Shown: piece by piece, positions 17,008-28,951 of the stretch
How the letters are laid out: each line of letters starts with the position of its first letter
How positions within the stretch are numbered: position 1 is the first letter of the stretch
From: a virus
Direction: 5' to 3' (one strand)
Virus record (IMG/VR): IMGVR_UViG_3300006030_000071
Span: 1-30,180 of that record
DNA: 30,180 bases
Program-made: the position numbers and the translations under genes
The notes under the pieces: generated by a model
Database searches by the model: none
Told to the model about the DNA's origin: nothing
What the model saw: only the letters and a program-made list of their open reading frames with translations

Positions 17008-18189
17008 TTAAAATAGAGATATTTGTCTTTGTGAATAATCTTTGTAAGCGTCTGCGCTAAACTCGACAATCTTTGTGTCTATGTTTGTTTGTTCGCCAAT
17101 GTATTTATAAGATTTTGTGATTGATTCTTTGCGTAGTTTTAAGCCATTGTCTTTGCCATCTGCTACTAGTTTCTCATTGATTTTTTTGATTGCTTCTATG
17201 TTGTTATTCTCAAGAACAAGATGCCAATTTTTCTCATTGCGTTGCATCCCCATAAATAGTGAAGGGTTGCTTGTCTTGATGTATAGCGTCTTGCCTATAT
17301 TTTTGTATAGCGACCCGAAATAGTTTAGTAATTTGATACCAAAACCTAGACCTTGGTAATCAGGTAGAACAACCAATCTACTAACACGAAACGCATTTTG
17401 TATCGTACCACTAGGTAGCGGTAAAATAGCAATAAATGCTGTAGGTTTATCGTTCCACGTCAAACAAAAACACTTTGCCGCTTTGTTCAAGTCTTGTGTC
17501 AAATAGTGATGGTGTTTGAATATACGCCAAGTTTCATATCTGCATCGAAATACCGAAAACTCAATTGATGGTCTTGATTGCCGAAGATAGTCGTGTCTCT
17601 CGACACGCCCCTTCAATGGTGAATATGTCCAATCAGGTAGCAACCACTCCATAATATCAAAGTGACAACTAGCGAGAATGATTTTCTTGTTGTTCTTGCG
17701 TATGAATTTTTGAAGCGCATAAGACATCGCTTTTGCTACGTCTCTATCTACGACACTTGTGTACTCATCCACAAGTACAACTTCGTTTTCTTTTGCAATA
17801 CCAACAAGATACGCTAATTGTGCGCGATATTGTTCACCATTCGAGAGCGTACGATATGGTCTCAACCAAGTTGGAACACTTGACAAACCCATTGAAGACA
17901 AAAGTAAACAAGCGTCGCTAGGTTGCAACCAATCAAAGTTTGAGATAAGAGACTTCGATTCGTCAAATTGAATCGTTCTAATCGCACCAAAATGCTTCAA
18001 AAGCGTTGATTTGCCTGTGCCACTACCTCCGTAGATGACTCCAATGTTCCAATCAAAGTTTCTACACTCTGCAAAATTGACAGGTATTTCTACGCTTGTC
18101 TTTGTTGAATCTTGAATGTCAAACGATTCACACACATATCGAGTGTATTCGTCTTCAAGAATGTTGTTCTCTAGTTTTATTGTTTTCAT
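17008..18189 (-). CDS. ABC-type ATPase fused to GNAT acetyltransferase domain
   Basis: The 393-residue protein has two domains. The N-terminal ABC ATPase has Walker A GGSGTGKS (54-61), signature LSNGEQ (115-120), Walker B EVVLVDE (136-142) and an H-loop His in ASCHF (about 176). The C-terminal GNAT domain (about 222-345) has HHHYLTQDLNKAAKCFCL and the acetyl-CoA loop RLVVLPDYQGLGFGIKLL. This domain order corresponds to the COG2401 type. There is no membrane segment, so it is not a transporter subunit. Mu Mom, a DNA-modifying protein, belongs to the same acyltransferase superfamily, so DNA or tRNA modification is possible but unproven. Confidence 0.85.
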   Translation of the reverse strand: MKTIKLENNILEDEYTRYVCESFDIQDSTKTSVEIPVNFAECRNFDWNIGVIYGGSGTGKSTLLKHFGAIRTIQFDESKSLISNFDWLQPSDACLLLSSMGLSSVPTWLRPYRTLSNGEQYRAQLAYLVGIAKENEVVLVDEYTSVVDRDVAKAMSYALQKFIRKNNKKIILASCHFDIMEWLLPDWTYSPLKGRVERHDYLRQSRPSIEFSVFRCRYETWRIFKHHHYLTQDLNKAAKCFCLTWNDKPTAFIAILPLPSGTIQNAFRVSRLVVLPDYQGLGFGIKLLNYFGSLYKNIGKTLYIKTSNPSLFMGMQRNEKNWHLVLENNNIEAIKKINEKLVADGKDNGLKLRKESITKSYKYIGEQTNIDTKIVEFSADAYKDYSQRQISLF

Positions 18190-19418
18190 AAGCGTTCTTT
18201 GTATTCAGTTAGTTTGCCTTCAAATGTAGTAGGTATTGTGCAACACTCTCCGTTTCGATTCTTTGCGATAATTAGTTCCGCTTCTTCTACGTCGGGCTTC
18301 TCTGTGTCGTAGTATGCAGGTCTAAAAGGAAACATCACAATATCTGCGTCTTGTTCTATCGCACCTGACTCTCTCAAGTCTGACAACATAGGTCTTTTGT
18401 CTTGTCGCTCTTCGCTTTTACGTGACAACTGAGCAAGTACGATGACCGTGATTTTCAATTCTTTTGCTAGTAGTTTCAAACCTCGTGAGATTTCTGCTAT
18501 CTCTTGCTCACGATTTGCTTTTGTTCCTTTGATTAGTTGTATGTAATCTATGACGAGTAAGTCTAGACCTTTGCGAGACTTATGCAACTTCGCCTTTGCT
18601 TTGATTTGCGCAATAGATGTATCAACGTCATCGTCAATGAAGAACTCGATTGATTGATTGTTTGCTGTGTTGATGACTTTGTCTATCTCGATTTGTTCTA
18701 GACGACCATTGCGAATCTTCCAATTTTCGATGTTGCCTATCAAAGACAAGTATCGCTTTGCAAGTTGTTCGTTTGACATCTCAAGCGACAAGAAGAGTGC
18801 TTTGTAGTTGTACTTCGCAAAGTCTTTTGTGAGCGTGAGAGCGATTGCAGTCTTACCCATTCCCGGTCTACCTGCTACGACTATCAAATCGCCTTCGTTG
18901 TAACCACCTATGTACTTGTCTAAGTATCGCCATCCTGTTTGTTTGCCTGTTAGCGCACCACCTTTGAGACTATTCTCAACTATTTGGTCAACTACTTTGT
19001 TTGTGACTTTTACTATCGAGTCAGGTTCTTTGTGTGTCGAGAATGTCGTCTCGTCAAGAATCGATTGCAAGTCTTTGACCATCTCATCAAGTTCTTTTGT
19101 CAAGTTCAAGTGTGACAATCTATCAATGAGAGTTGTTTTGATGTAGTTATATTCTAGAGTTTGAAGATGTGTTTTGATGTTTGTCAACCCACTTGCTTCT
19201 TGTTGTATCTTAATAATCTCAAAAACTTCTTTTTTTGTGAAATGCTTTGAGAGCGTCACTAAGTCGACAGGTTGATTGTCGTAGTACAATTGTGTCATCA
19301 CATCTACGATGCGACGTGAGAAGTCTTGTGTGAACCAATTCTTGTTGATTTGTGGTAAGAAGTGTCTTGCATCATTGTAGAACAGCAAGTTTGATAGTAT
19401 CATTTGTTCTAGATTCAT
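18186..19418 (-). CDS. dnaB: replicative DNA helicase, DnaB family
   Basis: The 410-residue protein has the DnaB N-terminal helical domain (about 1-125) and the RecA-like motor. Walker A is GRPGMGKT (183-190), the H1a segment is LFLSLEMS (208-215), Walker B is LLVIDYIQL (287-295), Gln330 lies in VIVLAQLSRK, H4 is ESGAIEQDAD (350-359), and the Arg finger region is AKNRNGE (about 385-391). The start overlaps the initiator stop by ATGA and the end overlaps the ABC-GNAT gene by ATGA. It unwinds DNA at the replication fork after loading by the initiator protein. Confidence 0.96.
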   Translation of the reverse strand: MNLEQMILSNLLFYNDARHFLPQINKNWFTQDFSRRIVDVMTQLYYDNQPVDLVTLSKHFTKKEVFEIIKIQQEASGLTNIKTHLQTLEYNYIKTTLIDRLSHLNLTKELDEMVKDLQSILDETTFSTHKEPDSIVKVTNKVVDQIVENSLKGGALTGKQTGWRYLDKYIGGYNEGDLIVVAGRPGMGKTAIALTLTKDFAKYNYKALFLSLEMSNEQLAKRYLSLIGNIENWKIRNGRLEQIEIDKVINTANNQSIEFFIDDDVDTSIAQIKAKAKLHKSRKGLDLLVIDYIQLIKGTKANREQEIAEISRGLKLLAKELKITVIVLAQLSRKSEERQDKRPMLSDLRESGAIEQDADIVMFPFRPAYYDTEKPDVEEAELIIAKNRNGECCTIPTTFEGKLTEYKERL

Positions 19419-19996
19419 AGTGTTGCAAGTTTATGTTGATTTGTTGACACTTTCAAATTATTTGGTTTCCAAGTTCGAACTGCTGACTTCCAATCTTTCA
19501 TCTTGTTTTTTCCTATCATCCAACCTTTTGATTCATAGAAGTCGAAAAACTTGTTTGATACGTCATTCATTCCTATTGAATCCATATAATCTCTCAACTC
19601 GTCTAGAGTTGGTTTAGTAAAACGTGTAGTCTTTTTATTATTTACATCTTCATTTTCATTTTCATTTTCCATATGTTCATCATATGTTTTACATATGTTA
19701 TTCATATCTTCTTTCTTCTTACGATTATTCGCTCTTGATTCACTATACTTCTTTCTCTTCTCGAACTCTTCTCTCATTCGTTTATTGAAGTATCCTTCTT
19801 CTGTTTTTTCGAATTTGTCAAAGATGTCTTCATCATATGTTTCACATATCTTCAACATATCTTTCTCGCTTAGTACGCCTTTTTGATGTTGAATACAGAG
19901 AAGTCGTATATACTTACCGACTTGCTCGTTTGTCATTAAGGTTGTACCTGTTAAAAAATCACTTGTGTAAAATAACACAGCAGGGTCTTTGCTCAT
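19415..19996 (-). CDS. replication initiator/helicase-loader type protein (DUF1376-like)
   Basis: The chosen start is ATG at 19996 (MSKDPAVLFYTSDFLTGTTL), where family-like similarity begins; an in-frame ATG at 20023 lies inside the terminator stem. The protein has 193 residues: an N-terminal winged-helix-like domain (MTNEQVGKYIRLLCIQHQKG), a charged linker with ENENENED, and a C-terminal DnaD-like part (FFDFYESKGW, WKSAVRTWK). A segment of form DMxxICxTYDE occurs twice in the linker, 51 codons apart, because the DNA there carries iteron arrays. It lies directly before dnaB, as helicase loaders do. Confidence 0.82.
   Translation of the reverse strand: MSKDPAVLFYTSDFLTGTTLMTNEQVGKYIRLLCIQHQKGVLSEKDMLKICETYDEDIFDKFEKTEEGYFNKRMREEFEKRKKYSESRANNRKKKEDMNNICKTYDEHMENENENEDVNNKKTTRFTKPTLDELRDYMDSIGMNDVSNKFFDFYESKGWMIGKNKMKDWKSAVRTWKPNNLKVSTNQHKLATL
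19630..19664 (-). other. A/T-rich tract beside iterons (candidate unwinding element)
   Basis: On the minus strand the four-copy iteron array runs into tandem TGAAAA units and then GTAAATAATAAAAAG, with almost no G/C pairs. In lambda-type origins an A/T-rich region flanks the iterons in the initiator gene and melts first. The role is inferred. Confidence 0.55.
19665..19708 (-). repeat. iteron array 1: four 11-bp repeats
   Basis: Four contiguous 11-mers on the minus strand follow the consensus SATATGNNNAA: GATATGAATAA, CATATGTAAAA, CATATGATGAA and CATATGGAAAA. The 11-bp period is one helical turn and is not a multiple of the codon length. Confidence 0.85.
19829..19861 (-). repeat. iteron array 2: three 11-bp repeats
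   Basis: Three contiguous 11-mers on the minus strand follow the same consensus SATATGNNNAA: GATATGTTGAA, GATATGTGAAA and CATATGATGAA. The unit CATATGATGAA is identical to one in array 1, exactly 153 bp away. Confidence 0.85.
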
Positions 19997-20009: not shown

Positions 20010-20059
20010 AAAAAAACCCCCATAGTAGAGTGTCTGCGGGAACAACTCTACCACGAGGG
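20010..20059 (-). terminator. strong terminator/attenuator in the initiator leader
   Basis: The minus-strand arm CCCTCGTGGTAGAGT (20059-20045) pairs along all 15 bases with ACTCTACTATGGGGG (20031-20017), including G-U pairs, and is followed by seven T (20016-20010). The 13-base loop contains CCCGCA. It ends 13 bases before the chosen start codon of the initiator gene. Confidence 0.85.
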
Positions 20060-20117
20060 TACGGTCTTTTGATTTTCAGCAAACCCGCATTTGCTAACCA
20101 ACGCTACAAATGTAGCC
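20010..20117 (-). ncRNA. candidate structured RNA with kissing hairpins
   Basis: Three hairpins follow each other on the minus strand: GCTAC-ATTT-GTAGC (20117-20104), AGCAAA-TGCGGG-TTTGCT (20095-20078, extendable by two pairs) and the 15-bp terminator stem (20059-20017). The loop TGCGGG of the second is the exact complement of CCCGCA in the third loop (20040-20035), so a 6-bp kissing interaction is possible. The RNA could be a leader that controls the initiator gene or a small RNA of about 90 bases. Confidence 0.6.
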
Positions 20118-26504: not shown

Positions 26505-27068
26505 TTATTTGTCCGTGTCGGGGAAGTCATAGTTCCAAAAACAATCGTCATAGTCAGTAGGTAAATATATACCGCCTACAAATGTAGTGCTTGAAGGTCG
26601 TATAGTATCGTATGTTGAGCCGGGATTCAAGAACAATGGGTAGTCGTTCGTGTATTCTCTCAAGTAATCTCTCAAACGATTCGCGTAGTATTCTGCTTTG
26701 TCACGATAGCGATTCTCTAAAAGCGTCAACTCGTCTACACTTATTGCTCTAGCGTTGTCACTCTCTCTACTTGCTACGCTCTTATTCATCAATTTGAACG
26801 TCATAGGAAGCATCGCTTCGCACAAAGTATAGTACTTCAAGCAAGGTGCAATATAAGAGTCTAGAAGCGTTGTATTTAAGTTTGTGAGTGTACCTGCAAA
26901 CGCTTGAGATTGCAACTCGTTATATAAGCCACTACCAATGATGTCACGAATGTAGATTTCTTGACTCTCTTTTATCGCGTTCTTTAAGAGTTTGTCGTCT
27001 ACGTTCTCATTGATAGGAGTGTTGTCCTTCAAATATGTGGTCGAAACGAAGTATACAAAGTTTGTCAT
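26505..27068 (-). CDS. head-tail connector-like protein, 187 aa
   Basis: The protein starts MTNFVYFVSTTYLKDNTPIN and is largely helical: LLKNAIKESQEIYIRDIIGS, YIAPCLKYYTLCEAMLPMTF and YRDKAEYYANRLRDYLREY. This order resembles the gp6/DUF6712-type adaptors in Bacteroidota phages, which bind below the portal. The gene overlaps the portal stop by ATGA. Confidence 0.75.
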   Translation of the reverse strand: MTNFVYFVSTTYLKDNTPINENVDDKLLKNAIKESQEIYIRDIIGSGLYNELQSQAFAGTLTNLNTTLLDSYIAPCLKYYTLCEAMLPMTFKLMNKSVASRESDNARAISVDELTLLENRYRDKAEYYANRLRDYLREYTNDYPLFLNPGSTYDTIRPSSTTFVGGIYLPTDYDDCFWNYDFPDTDK

Positions 27069-28951
27069 TTTCTTCTTCTTACTACTTTAGATGCCCAAAT
27101 GTGACGACAAGATGGTCTATGCACAGCAGGTGATGAATCAGGGATTGTGTACCATCCACCGCGACGCTTCCATACGTCATAACCTAGCAACGCACTCATC
27201 GCGTTTATGTCTTCACGAGAATAGACTCTATCTACACGAACGACGCTACGACAAAAGTCACGAGATGTGTCAATGATTATGTCGCCTTTTGTGTTCGGTG
27301 CTTTCTCGTATTTGTAACGAACGAGCAATTCAGTTGCGATGTCTGCGATTTCTTTCAAGCCATCTTCTGTGATTGTCAATCCACCTTCAGCAGGTTGAAT
27401 CATACCTGTCTTGTTCAAGTTGTCTATTGCTTGAGACACTTTTAACAAGTCAGCGTCAATGATGTTTACAACTTCACCGATAGTGATTCCCTTGTTTTCT
27501 TTGATTGTGTTCAAGACTGCTTTCTCGATGTCGCTAGCAAAAGTCATTTTGACTTCTTCAAATAGACTAGCATCTTCACCAAATTGAGCAAACACTTTTA
27601 AGTCACGCTCGTCATCCCATCCAAAAGGATTTGATTTTGATAAAGCGACAGGTGATGCAGTTGGTAGAGCGTCGCCTCCTGCGATAGGTGTAAGACCTGC
27701 AAGTTGACGCTTCTCGTTGATTGTCATATTCGACAATACGTTGTTCGCTACTAAAGGCGACAAAGAATTGATTGCGTCGTTCAAGTTTGATTGAATCTTC
27801 ACTTGTGATAGTTCAGGCAATCCCAACTCTTTACGTGCTTCTTCATTCGAAATCAAGTTTCTAGTGTACAAGTCTAAGTAGTCAAGACCTAGCGGAGGTT
27901 TGTTGATAGTCTCAAGTTTTACAGGCGAAATGAAAGAGAACAAATAAGTCAATTGCTCATCCATTTTCTGTTGACGAGGTTCTACGTATGCTTGTTGAAA
28001 CATCTCGTAGGCTTCAATCATTTCGCTACGACCACCGAGTTGACCTTCTACACGAACACCGAACAACATCGGTGAGTTGACTTTGTGACCTACGAAGATT
28101 TCTTGTTGTACCGTTTTGTTTAAGATGTCAAACTGCTTGTCAAAATCGCTTGGTTGAATGTTCGATACAATCGACTCTCTTTCATTTGGGTCGTTGTACA
28201 TCAAAATCAATCCACCTGCGTTGTCTGTACCTTGATAAGAGTCTTTGAATCTACGCTTTGCTTTTCTTGCTTCTTCAGGCGTTGGAACACCTTTGAACAT
28301 TTGTATCAATGTTTGAGCAGAGAAACCATTCTTAATAGAGTTCAAGTGCCAATTTGATACTTCTGTGTCAATCTCGATGTACTTCAACGCACCTACGTAG
28401 TCAGGTAGTGGATAGATACCTTGACCCGGTCTGTACATCTTGTAGTAGAACAACTGCTTTGACTCACGAGTGTTCTCGTTGAATGGGTTGTAATGTACAA
28501 TCTCTTCACGACGATTCGCCCAATCTTCAGAATAGTAGTAGCAATCGTCTAGACCTACTCGAACATTCTTGAATGGTATGTGATACAACTCAGCGATTTG
28601 AGTCTTTGCGCGATTCCAAATAACTTCGACAGCAAAGCCATTGAACAACTCTAAGTCGTAAGCGATTTTCTGCTTTACTTCTTCGAATGACTCGTATGTG
28701 TTTATTGACTTGAGTTTTGACTCTGCTTTTGCGATGTCTTGTGTGTTCTGTGCTACGATTGCAGTACCTACACCTGATACATATGACGCTTTCGCTGAAA
28801 CAATCGCGTTGTGTTTAGGCGATTTAGAGAACAAGTCAACGAGTAAATCAGGATACAAGTTGTCGTCACCAAAGTTGTAGATGTCTTTCGACTTATTCTC
28901 TTTGAATGTCGGTAGTTTATTCTCGTGAAATTGAAGTCTTTCGAAGTTCAT
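27065..28951 (-). CDS. portal protein with C-terminal winged-helix and MuF-like regions
   Basis: The 628-residue protein starts MNFERLQFHENKLPTFKENK. Residues about 1-420 are portal-like: YPDLLVDLFSKSPKHNAIVS, NGFAVEVIWNRAKTQIAELY, and the clip/wing region EIFVGHKVNSPMLFGVRVEG with a C-terminal portal part (NLISNEEARKELGLPELS). Residues about 470-560 look like a winged-helix domain (GITIGEVVNIIDADLLKVSQ). The last 65 residues (SRDFCRSVVRVDRVYSRED, then GGWYTIPDSS and CRHIWASKVVRRRK) resemble the end of minor head proteins of the MuF/SPP1 gp7 type. It forms the DNA gate at one capsid vertex. Confidence 0.88.
   Translation of the reverse strand: MNFERLQFHENKLPTFKENKSKDIYNFGDDNLYPDLLVDLFSKSPKHNAIVSAKASYVSGVGTAIVAQNTQDIAKAESKLKSINTYESFEEVKQKIAYDLELFNGFAVEVIWNRAKTQIAELYHIPFKNVRVGLDDCYYYSEDWANRREEIVHYNPFNENTRESKQLFYYKMYRPGQGIYPLPDYVGALKYIEIDTEVSNWHLNSIKNGFSAQTLIQMFKGVPTPEEARKAKRRFKDSYQGTDNAGGLILMYNDPNERESIVSNIQPSDFDKQFDILNKTVQQEIFVGHKVNSPMLFGVRVEGQLGGRSEMIEAYEMFQQAYVEPRQQKMDEQLTYLFSFISPVKLETINKPPLGLDYLDLYTRNLISNEEARKELGLPELSQVKIQSNLNDAINSLSPLVANNVLSNMTINEKRQLAGLTPIAGGDALPTASPVALSKSNPFGWDDERDLKVFAQFGEDASLFEEVKMTFASDIEKAVLNTIKENKGITIGEVVNIIDADLLKVSQAIDNLNKTGMIQPAEGGLTITEDGLKEIADIATELLVRYKYEKAPNTKGDIIIDTSRDFCRSVVRVDRVYSREDINAMSALLGYDVWKRRGGWYTIPDSSPAVHRPSCRHIWASKVVRRRK

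Follow-up and report, generated by a model that had tools for sequence, protein, structure and literature searches.

For most environmental phages, it is not known where replication begins. A 30,180-bp record from IMG/VR (IMGVR_UViG_3300006030_000071, whose full length is referred to here as the window) raises the question of whether such an origin can be located within a replication initiator gene, where an initial annotation had picked out two arrays of short repeats with an A/T-rich flank as a candidate. The larger genes of this record lie nearly all on the minus strand, and its source is a tailed phage of roughly 30 kb, probably with a Bacteroidota host. Related sequences are designated below by L numbers.

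The initiator gene and its neighbors

The initiator gene (19415-19996, minus strand) encodes 193 amino acids from the ATG of MSKDPA, a start common to its homologs, within an ORF that is readable from 20023. It is located directly upstream of the gene for a DnaB-like replicative helicase (18186-19418, minus strand; Pfam DnaB_C, 3e-89; phrog_19), which overlaps its end. The gene directly downstream of the helicase (17008-18189, minus strand) encodes an ABC-type ATPase domain fused to a GNAT acetyltransferase domain, and its product matches phrog_11143, a family of unknown function, over its full length (E 8e-131). Elsewhere in the window, the C-terminal third of the portal protein (27065-28951, minus strand) weakly matches winged-helix-like families (HTH_24, RPA_C).

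The initiator scores 19.3 bits against Pfam DUF1376 (PF07120), under the gathering cutoff of 30.1, and the best score among its relatives (L252, 28.3 bits) is also under this cutoff, which makes the protein at most a diverged DUF1376 relative on sequence grounds. Its PHROG matches are to families annotated as primosomal proteins. NCBIfam returned no match, and no iteron plasmid Rep family was matched in Pfam, NCBIfam or PHROG. The AlphaFold model comprises an N-terminal domain of high confidence, a linker (residues 114-131, pLDDT <50) that is predicted to be disordered, and a small C-terminal domain. The N-terminal domain contains helices at residues 32-48, 53-60 and 65-68, followed by a wing and a further helix at 81-103, and is thus predicted to be wHTH-like, with a helix-turn-helix-wing order. 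As a search of the PDB by fold gave no significant match, the term winged helix is taken here from this order of elements. A weak PDB sequence match to a glutamate-tRNA ligase (E 5e-4) was uninformative and was set aside.

Two arrays of 11-bp repeats within the initiator gene

Seven 11-bp units of the form AASATATGNNN are found on the minus strand of the initiator gene, grouped in two arrays. Array 1 (19831-19863) lies in the code of the N-domain (DMLKICETYD) and contains three units, which read AAGATATGTTG, AAGATATGTGA and AACATATGATG from 19863 down to 19831. Array 2 (19667-19710) lies in the linker code (DMNNICKTYDEHME) and contains four, AAGATATGAAT, AACATATGTAA, AACATATGATG and AACATATGGAA, from 19710 down to 19667. 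Tandem Repeats Finder (TRF) returned a period of 11 for both arrays, and a repeat search gave spacings of 11, 11, 131, 11 and 11. The arrays of four and three described in the initial annotation are therefore real, their positions having been placed to within about 2 bases, though not at the exact limits given here. AASATATG occurs nine times in the window, against 2.55 expected, a count reached by none of 100 shuffles, and seven of the nine copies are the array units.

The seven units use all three reading frames, consecutive units being in different frames. With the protein held fixed and the codon usage that of the phage, none of 20,000 recodings reached seven units or five phased pairs, and permutation of the codons within the gene gave P = 0.0015. 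A looser measure, counting ATATG, is not used as main evidence because it gave P = 0.03 for the window under codon permutation and no excess in relatives with in-frame 12-bp arrays. Since the unit pattern was picked after the sequence had been seen, we turned to homologs as independent evidence.

Conservation of the repeats at the DNA level

Scans of viral contigs and genomes yielded 97 distinct initiator genes with an N-domain of the window type; a homolog search with L054 matched L054 alone. Both arrays are in place in most of the 97 genes, and no recognizable arrays were found in the homologs L055, L232, L253 and L255. The spacing is 11 bp in close relatives and 12 bp, in frame, in a deeper branch of the L062 type (GTCATATGACC, peptide HMTSHM). 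Phased pairs of the CATATG type number 222 in 63 kb of initiator genes and zero in 396 kb of flanking DNA. The same confinement is seen in five related records of 30-32 kb, where every cluster falls at one place and three isolated single matches lie elsewhere.

Codon choice within the units departs from that of neighboring ORFs. The dipeptide HM uses CATATG in 128 of its 130 occurrences in units versus 2 of 13 in neighboring ORFs, IC has ATA for its isoleucine in 24/27 versus 18/65, and TY is written ACATAT in 20/23 versus 25/153. The bias is present in each array taken alone: in array 1 of the homologs it holds for DM (19/19), IC (21/23) and HM (46/48), and in array 2 HM is CATATG in 82 of 82 occurrences in homolog linkers. 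The P values obtained from such comparisons overstate independence because the homologs are related, and serve as guides. The 12-bp in-frame arrays of the L062 type show no excess over codon shuffling, so the case for this branch rests on codon choice and on the co-change of its arrays, described below. Judged by these patterns, the repeats are kept by selection on DNA and not on protein only. An alignment of homologs had been suggested as a check on whether the 11-bp phase is kept while the amino acids vary, and the phase and both arrays persist across this diverse family. The claim that protein coding does not explain the 11-bp period is likewise borne out by the use of three frames, the recodings and the codon bias relative to neighboring genes.

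The two arrays change together and follow the N-domain

The unit sequence differs between branches, and the two arrays are alike within each branch: AASATATG in that of the window, GGTCATATGACC in that of L062, CCATATGGCG in L190 and AGCATATGCT in L252. Lineage variants of the unit include GTCATATGACC, GCCATATGGC and AGCATATGCT. Domain and linker arrays resemble each other more within a genome than between genomes (P<1e-4; 10,000 permutations, n=42). With spacers included, the longest stretch identical between the arrays measures 31 bp in L150, 28 bp in L062 and 14 bp in the window. The last of these, AAACATATGATGAA, contains the shared unit noted initially at a distance of 153 bp. The long identities in L150 and L062 suggest that sequence was copied from one array to the other in such relatives. 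The in-frame duplication proposed for the window is plausible though unproven there, and is well supported in relatives such as L150 by the 31-bp identity.

Comparison of initiators with exchanged domains revealed which part of the protein the repeats accompany. L034 and L038 have the N-domain and the iterons in common and differ in their C-domains, while L065, L067 and L077 carry the same C-domain with other N-domains and have no CATATG arrays. Across these sequences, the iterons go with the N-domain and not with the C-domain. Because they track the N-domain through domain swaps, we take this as indirect evidence that the N-domain may be the part that reads them. The swaps in both groups are clean exchanges of a C- or N-terminal domain around the linker with its iterons and A/T-rich tract, and the linker behaves as if it were a recombination joint. 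In L062, L150, L190 and L252, the domain array opens with a unit that is perfectly palindromic around CATATG (GGTCATATGACC, GCCATATGGC, AGCATATGCT), which suggests a symmetric site or a dimer.

An A/T-rich tract follows array 2

Array 2 is followed by an A/T-rich tract (19610-19669, minus strand; 77% A/T), coding for ENENENEDVNNKK, which is a candidate DNA unwinding element. No other 100 bp of the window are as A/T-rich as 19630-19729 (79%), and 30 bp at 19633 reach 87%. The A/T-rich flank of the four-copy array is therefore present, although its initial description as nearly G/C-free was slightly too strong. Across the family, the 60 bp after array 2 have a median of 82% A/T versus 63% for the loci. 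Asparagine is encoded in the family tract by AAT 193 times and by AAC twice, compared with 339 and 203 times in the rest of the genes, and aspartate is GAT in 50 of 50 cases in the tract. These counts indicate that synonymous codon choice holds the code of the NENENEN linker at a high A/T content, which would be expected of an unwinding element.

A probable leader RNA upstream of the initiator gene

The sequence ahead of the initiator gene (20010-20099, minus strand) is predicted to form a leader RNA. It consists of a hairpin and a second, longer one that is terminator-like and ends in a U run, and the apical loops of the two are complementary. The loops are 6-8 nt long and perfectly complementary; the window has the pair TGCGGG/CCCGCA, and relatives have GTGCGAG/CTCGCAC, GTACAAG/CTTGTAC, GTCGCAG/CTGCGAC and others. 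Pairing in the loop-loop helix amounts to 96% among 19 leader variants, and four of the seven pairs in this helix have changed on both sides. Over all pairs, changes on both sides occur at 26 of 33, a covariation reached by none of 500 shuffles. The fold has a z of -5.3, and the RNA model matches the window with an E of 2.9e-7, the window sequence being included in the model. The presence of G-U pairs on the minus strand suggests that the leader acts as RNA rather than as DNA.

Just before the leader RNA lies the promoter element TACATTTG (TAnnTTTG; 20107-20114, minus strand). TAnnTTTG is found 14-18 nt before the leader in 18 of the 19 variants, against a background of about 1%. This motif is the -7 element of Bacteroidota promoters, and it suggests Bacteroidota hosts. 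The initiator operon begins with this promoter and leader, which in some relatives precede the start of the initiator by 220-545 nt, and further copies of the leader were found at L002 2920-3006, L034 957-1045 and L058 2567-2656. Rfam gave no match for the window region or for ten relatives. Model R1 found none in 251 genomes from the family to which L140, a Flavobacterium, belongs, but this search had no positive control and is therefore uninformative. The leader likely serves either in attenuation of the initiator operon or as a short terminated RNA. Such a kissing-hairpin, terminator-like leader appears to be undescribed in the part of the literature that we searched.

The arrays as a probable replication origin

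The locus combines direct repeats within an initiator gene with an adjacent A/T-rich tract and an adjacent helicase gene, which are the features looked for in an in-gene origin. We consider it very likely, from sequence comparison, that the arrays and the tract form the replication origin of the phage inside its own initiator gene. The N-terminal winged-helix-like domain would bind the CATATG-type iterons, and since these are one helical turn apart, the bound copies would line up on one face of the DNA. These sites are split, with one array in the code of the DNA-binding domain and the other in that of the floppy linker. Once filled, the arrays would open the A/T-rich tract that lies beyond array 2, and DnaB, the product of the next gene, would be recruited by the C-terminal domain, allowing replication to start. 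GC skew did not corroborate this placement, as the values were small and the skew did not turn at the site with the sign expected of an origin.

The arrays could instead be initiator sites for autoregulation or for fork arrest, like oriR of SPP1, with replication starting elsewhere. Binding-site arrays of this kind would give the same conservation and co-change, and the promoter and leader RNA are only about 240 bp upstream of array 1. However, the arrays lie within the coding region and not at the promoter, autoregulation does not need an A/T tract selected at synonymous sites after array 2, and the layout equals that of experimentally tested origins in initiator genes. We therefore regard this explanation as improbable.

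A still smaller probability attaches to a repeat selected in the protein, through peptide motifs such as HM, TYDE and NEN, with the DNA period as a by-product. The in-frame relatives of the L062 type fit it, since codon shuffling reproduces their 12-bp repeat (HMTSHM). It is already contradicted by the three frames used in the window and most close relatives, by a codon choice in the units far from that of neighboring genes and by the absence of phased pairs from the flanks, and the linker that would bear such motifs is predicted to be disordered. Iteron-like arrays also act as centromeres and packaging sites, and a role in partition or packaging is a further alternative. Throughout the family, however, the arrays keep their place within the initiator gene next to DnaB, none of the window proteins scanned stood out as a partition protein, and the A/T tract fits an origin. 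We give this explanation the lowest probability.

Initiators with the same C-domain and other N-domains

The comparison was extended to a set of 70 non-redundant initiators that have the C-terminal domain in common and mostly carry other N-domains. Identical 7-mers 11 bp apart number 229 in this set, versus 16 by codon shuffling, and at least three such pairs occur in 31 of the 70 initiators (44%), compared with 2 of 269 neighboring ORFs (0.7%). Spacings of 12, 18 and 24 are raised too, but are confounded by in-frame low-complexity codons. The arrays lie mostly in linker code, and their units differ by gene: GGGCACAGCAG four times in L104, AACAAACGATT four times in L211, GAAACGCAAAC-like units five times in L069 and ACCAAACCGAT-like units seven times in L135. 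Arrays of other sequence at 11 bp were also found in L112, L129, L134, L090 and others, which have the same C-domain and other N-domains. About 22 arrays are strong, among them those of L163 and L172, which belong to the window-type (CATATG) N-domain family; several others have only two copies. Following strong arrays, the adjoining 45 bp have an A/T fraction of 0.72, higher than the 0.63 of the 45 bp that precede them (P = 0.0006).

These results lead us to propose, tentatively and with somewhat less than even confidence, a large undescribed class of phage replicons. Its initiators would have interchangeable N-domains, each with its own iterons at a common spacing of 11 bp (one turn) in the linker code, followed by a melting tract. 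In the CATATG branch, a second array in the code of the DNA-binding domain would co-evolve with the first, and in aquatic phages of the Bacteroidota type, a kissing-hairpin RNA with which the operon begins would gate synthesis of the initiator as an attenuator. No description of this initiator family was found in literature on DUF1376, DUF4373 and in-gene iterons, of which our coverage was partial.

If the rule holds that 11-bp phased linker repeats in a modular initiator are followed by an A/T tract, origins and initiators could be found by sequence in many genomes, and a DNA site could be predicted for each initiator domain. With its two co-evolving arrays, one of them in DNA-binding-domain code, the gene clearly exemplifies two constraints acting simultaneously. 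Confirmation of the kissing-hairpin leader would add a new form of RNA control to phage replication.

Comparison with known origins in initiator genes

Tested origins inside initiator genes include the lambda ori in gene O (PMC7466680). As in lambda, the initiator gene of the window has iterons and an A/T-rich tract in its middle, where they separate the DNA-binding and C-terminal parts, with a helicase-related gene next to it, which is a helicase-recruiting gene in lambda and the phage DnaB in the window. The lambda iterons, however, are 18 bp long, spaced at 20-24 bp and confined to one array, whereas the window has two arrays of one-turn, 11-bp spacing, one of them in DNA-binding-domain code. 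No similarity between the window initiator and lambda O was detected (hhalign probability 0.6%), and this value and the 11-bp spacing place it outside the lambda O family. The lambda-type design proposed initially therefore applies to the layout, but not to the protein or to the spacing, which is one turn and not about two.

SPP1 oriL, a tested origin within gene 38 (gp38), likewise has in-gene direct repeats, an A/T-rich DUE and a phage DnaB helicase in the system of gp38, gp39 and gp40 (PMC6316719). SPP1, compared here by description only, differs from the window in its second origin and its separate helicase loader. In TP901-1 (ORF13) and Tuc2009 (Rep), repeats inside the replisome organizer gene were shown to be the origin (PMC8965321). 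In contrast to the window, the dominant repeat period of TP901-1 is 15 bp and that of Tuc2009 is 15/5, alongside some repeats at 11, and both proteins are DnaD-like.

YdaU (DUF1376) of the E. coli Rac prophage is a distant relative, with an ATPase gene next to it and repeats in its linker region, but its gene has no CATATG arrays. In E. coli K-12 ydaU (L259 4120-4977), the linker repeats are AAGCAGATGTTCAAAC-like and 33 bp apart, and they are a possible site of the Rac origin oriJ. Compared with the tested origins in initiator genes, the window is distinct in the one-turn spacing of its repeats, in units that run through three frames, in an array within the code of the DNA-binding domain, and in a phage DnaB gene directly downstream.
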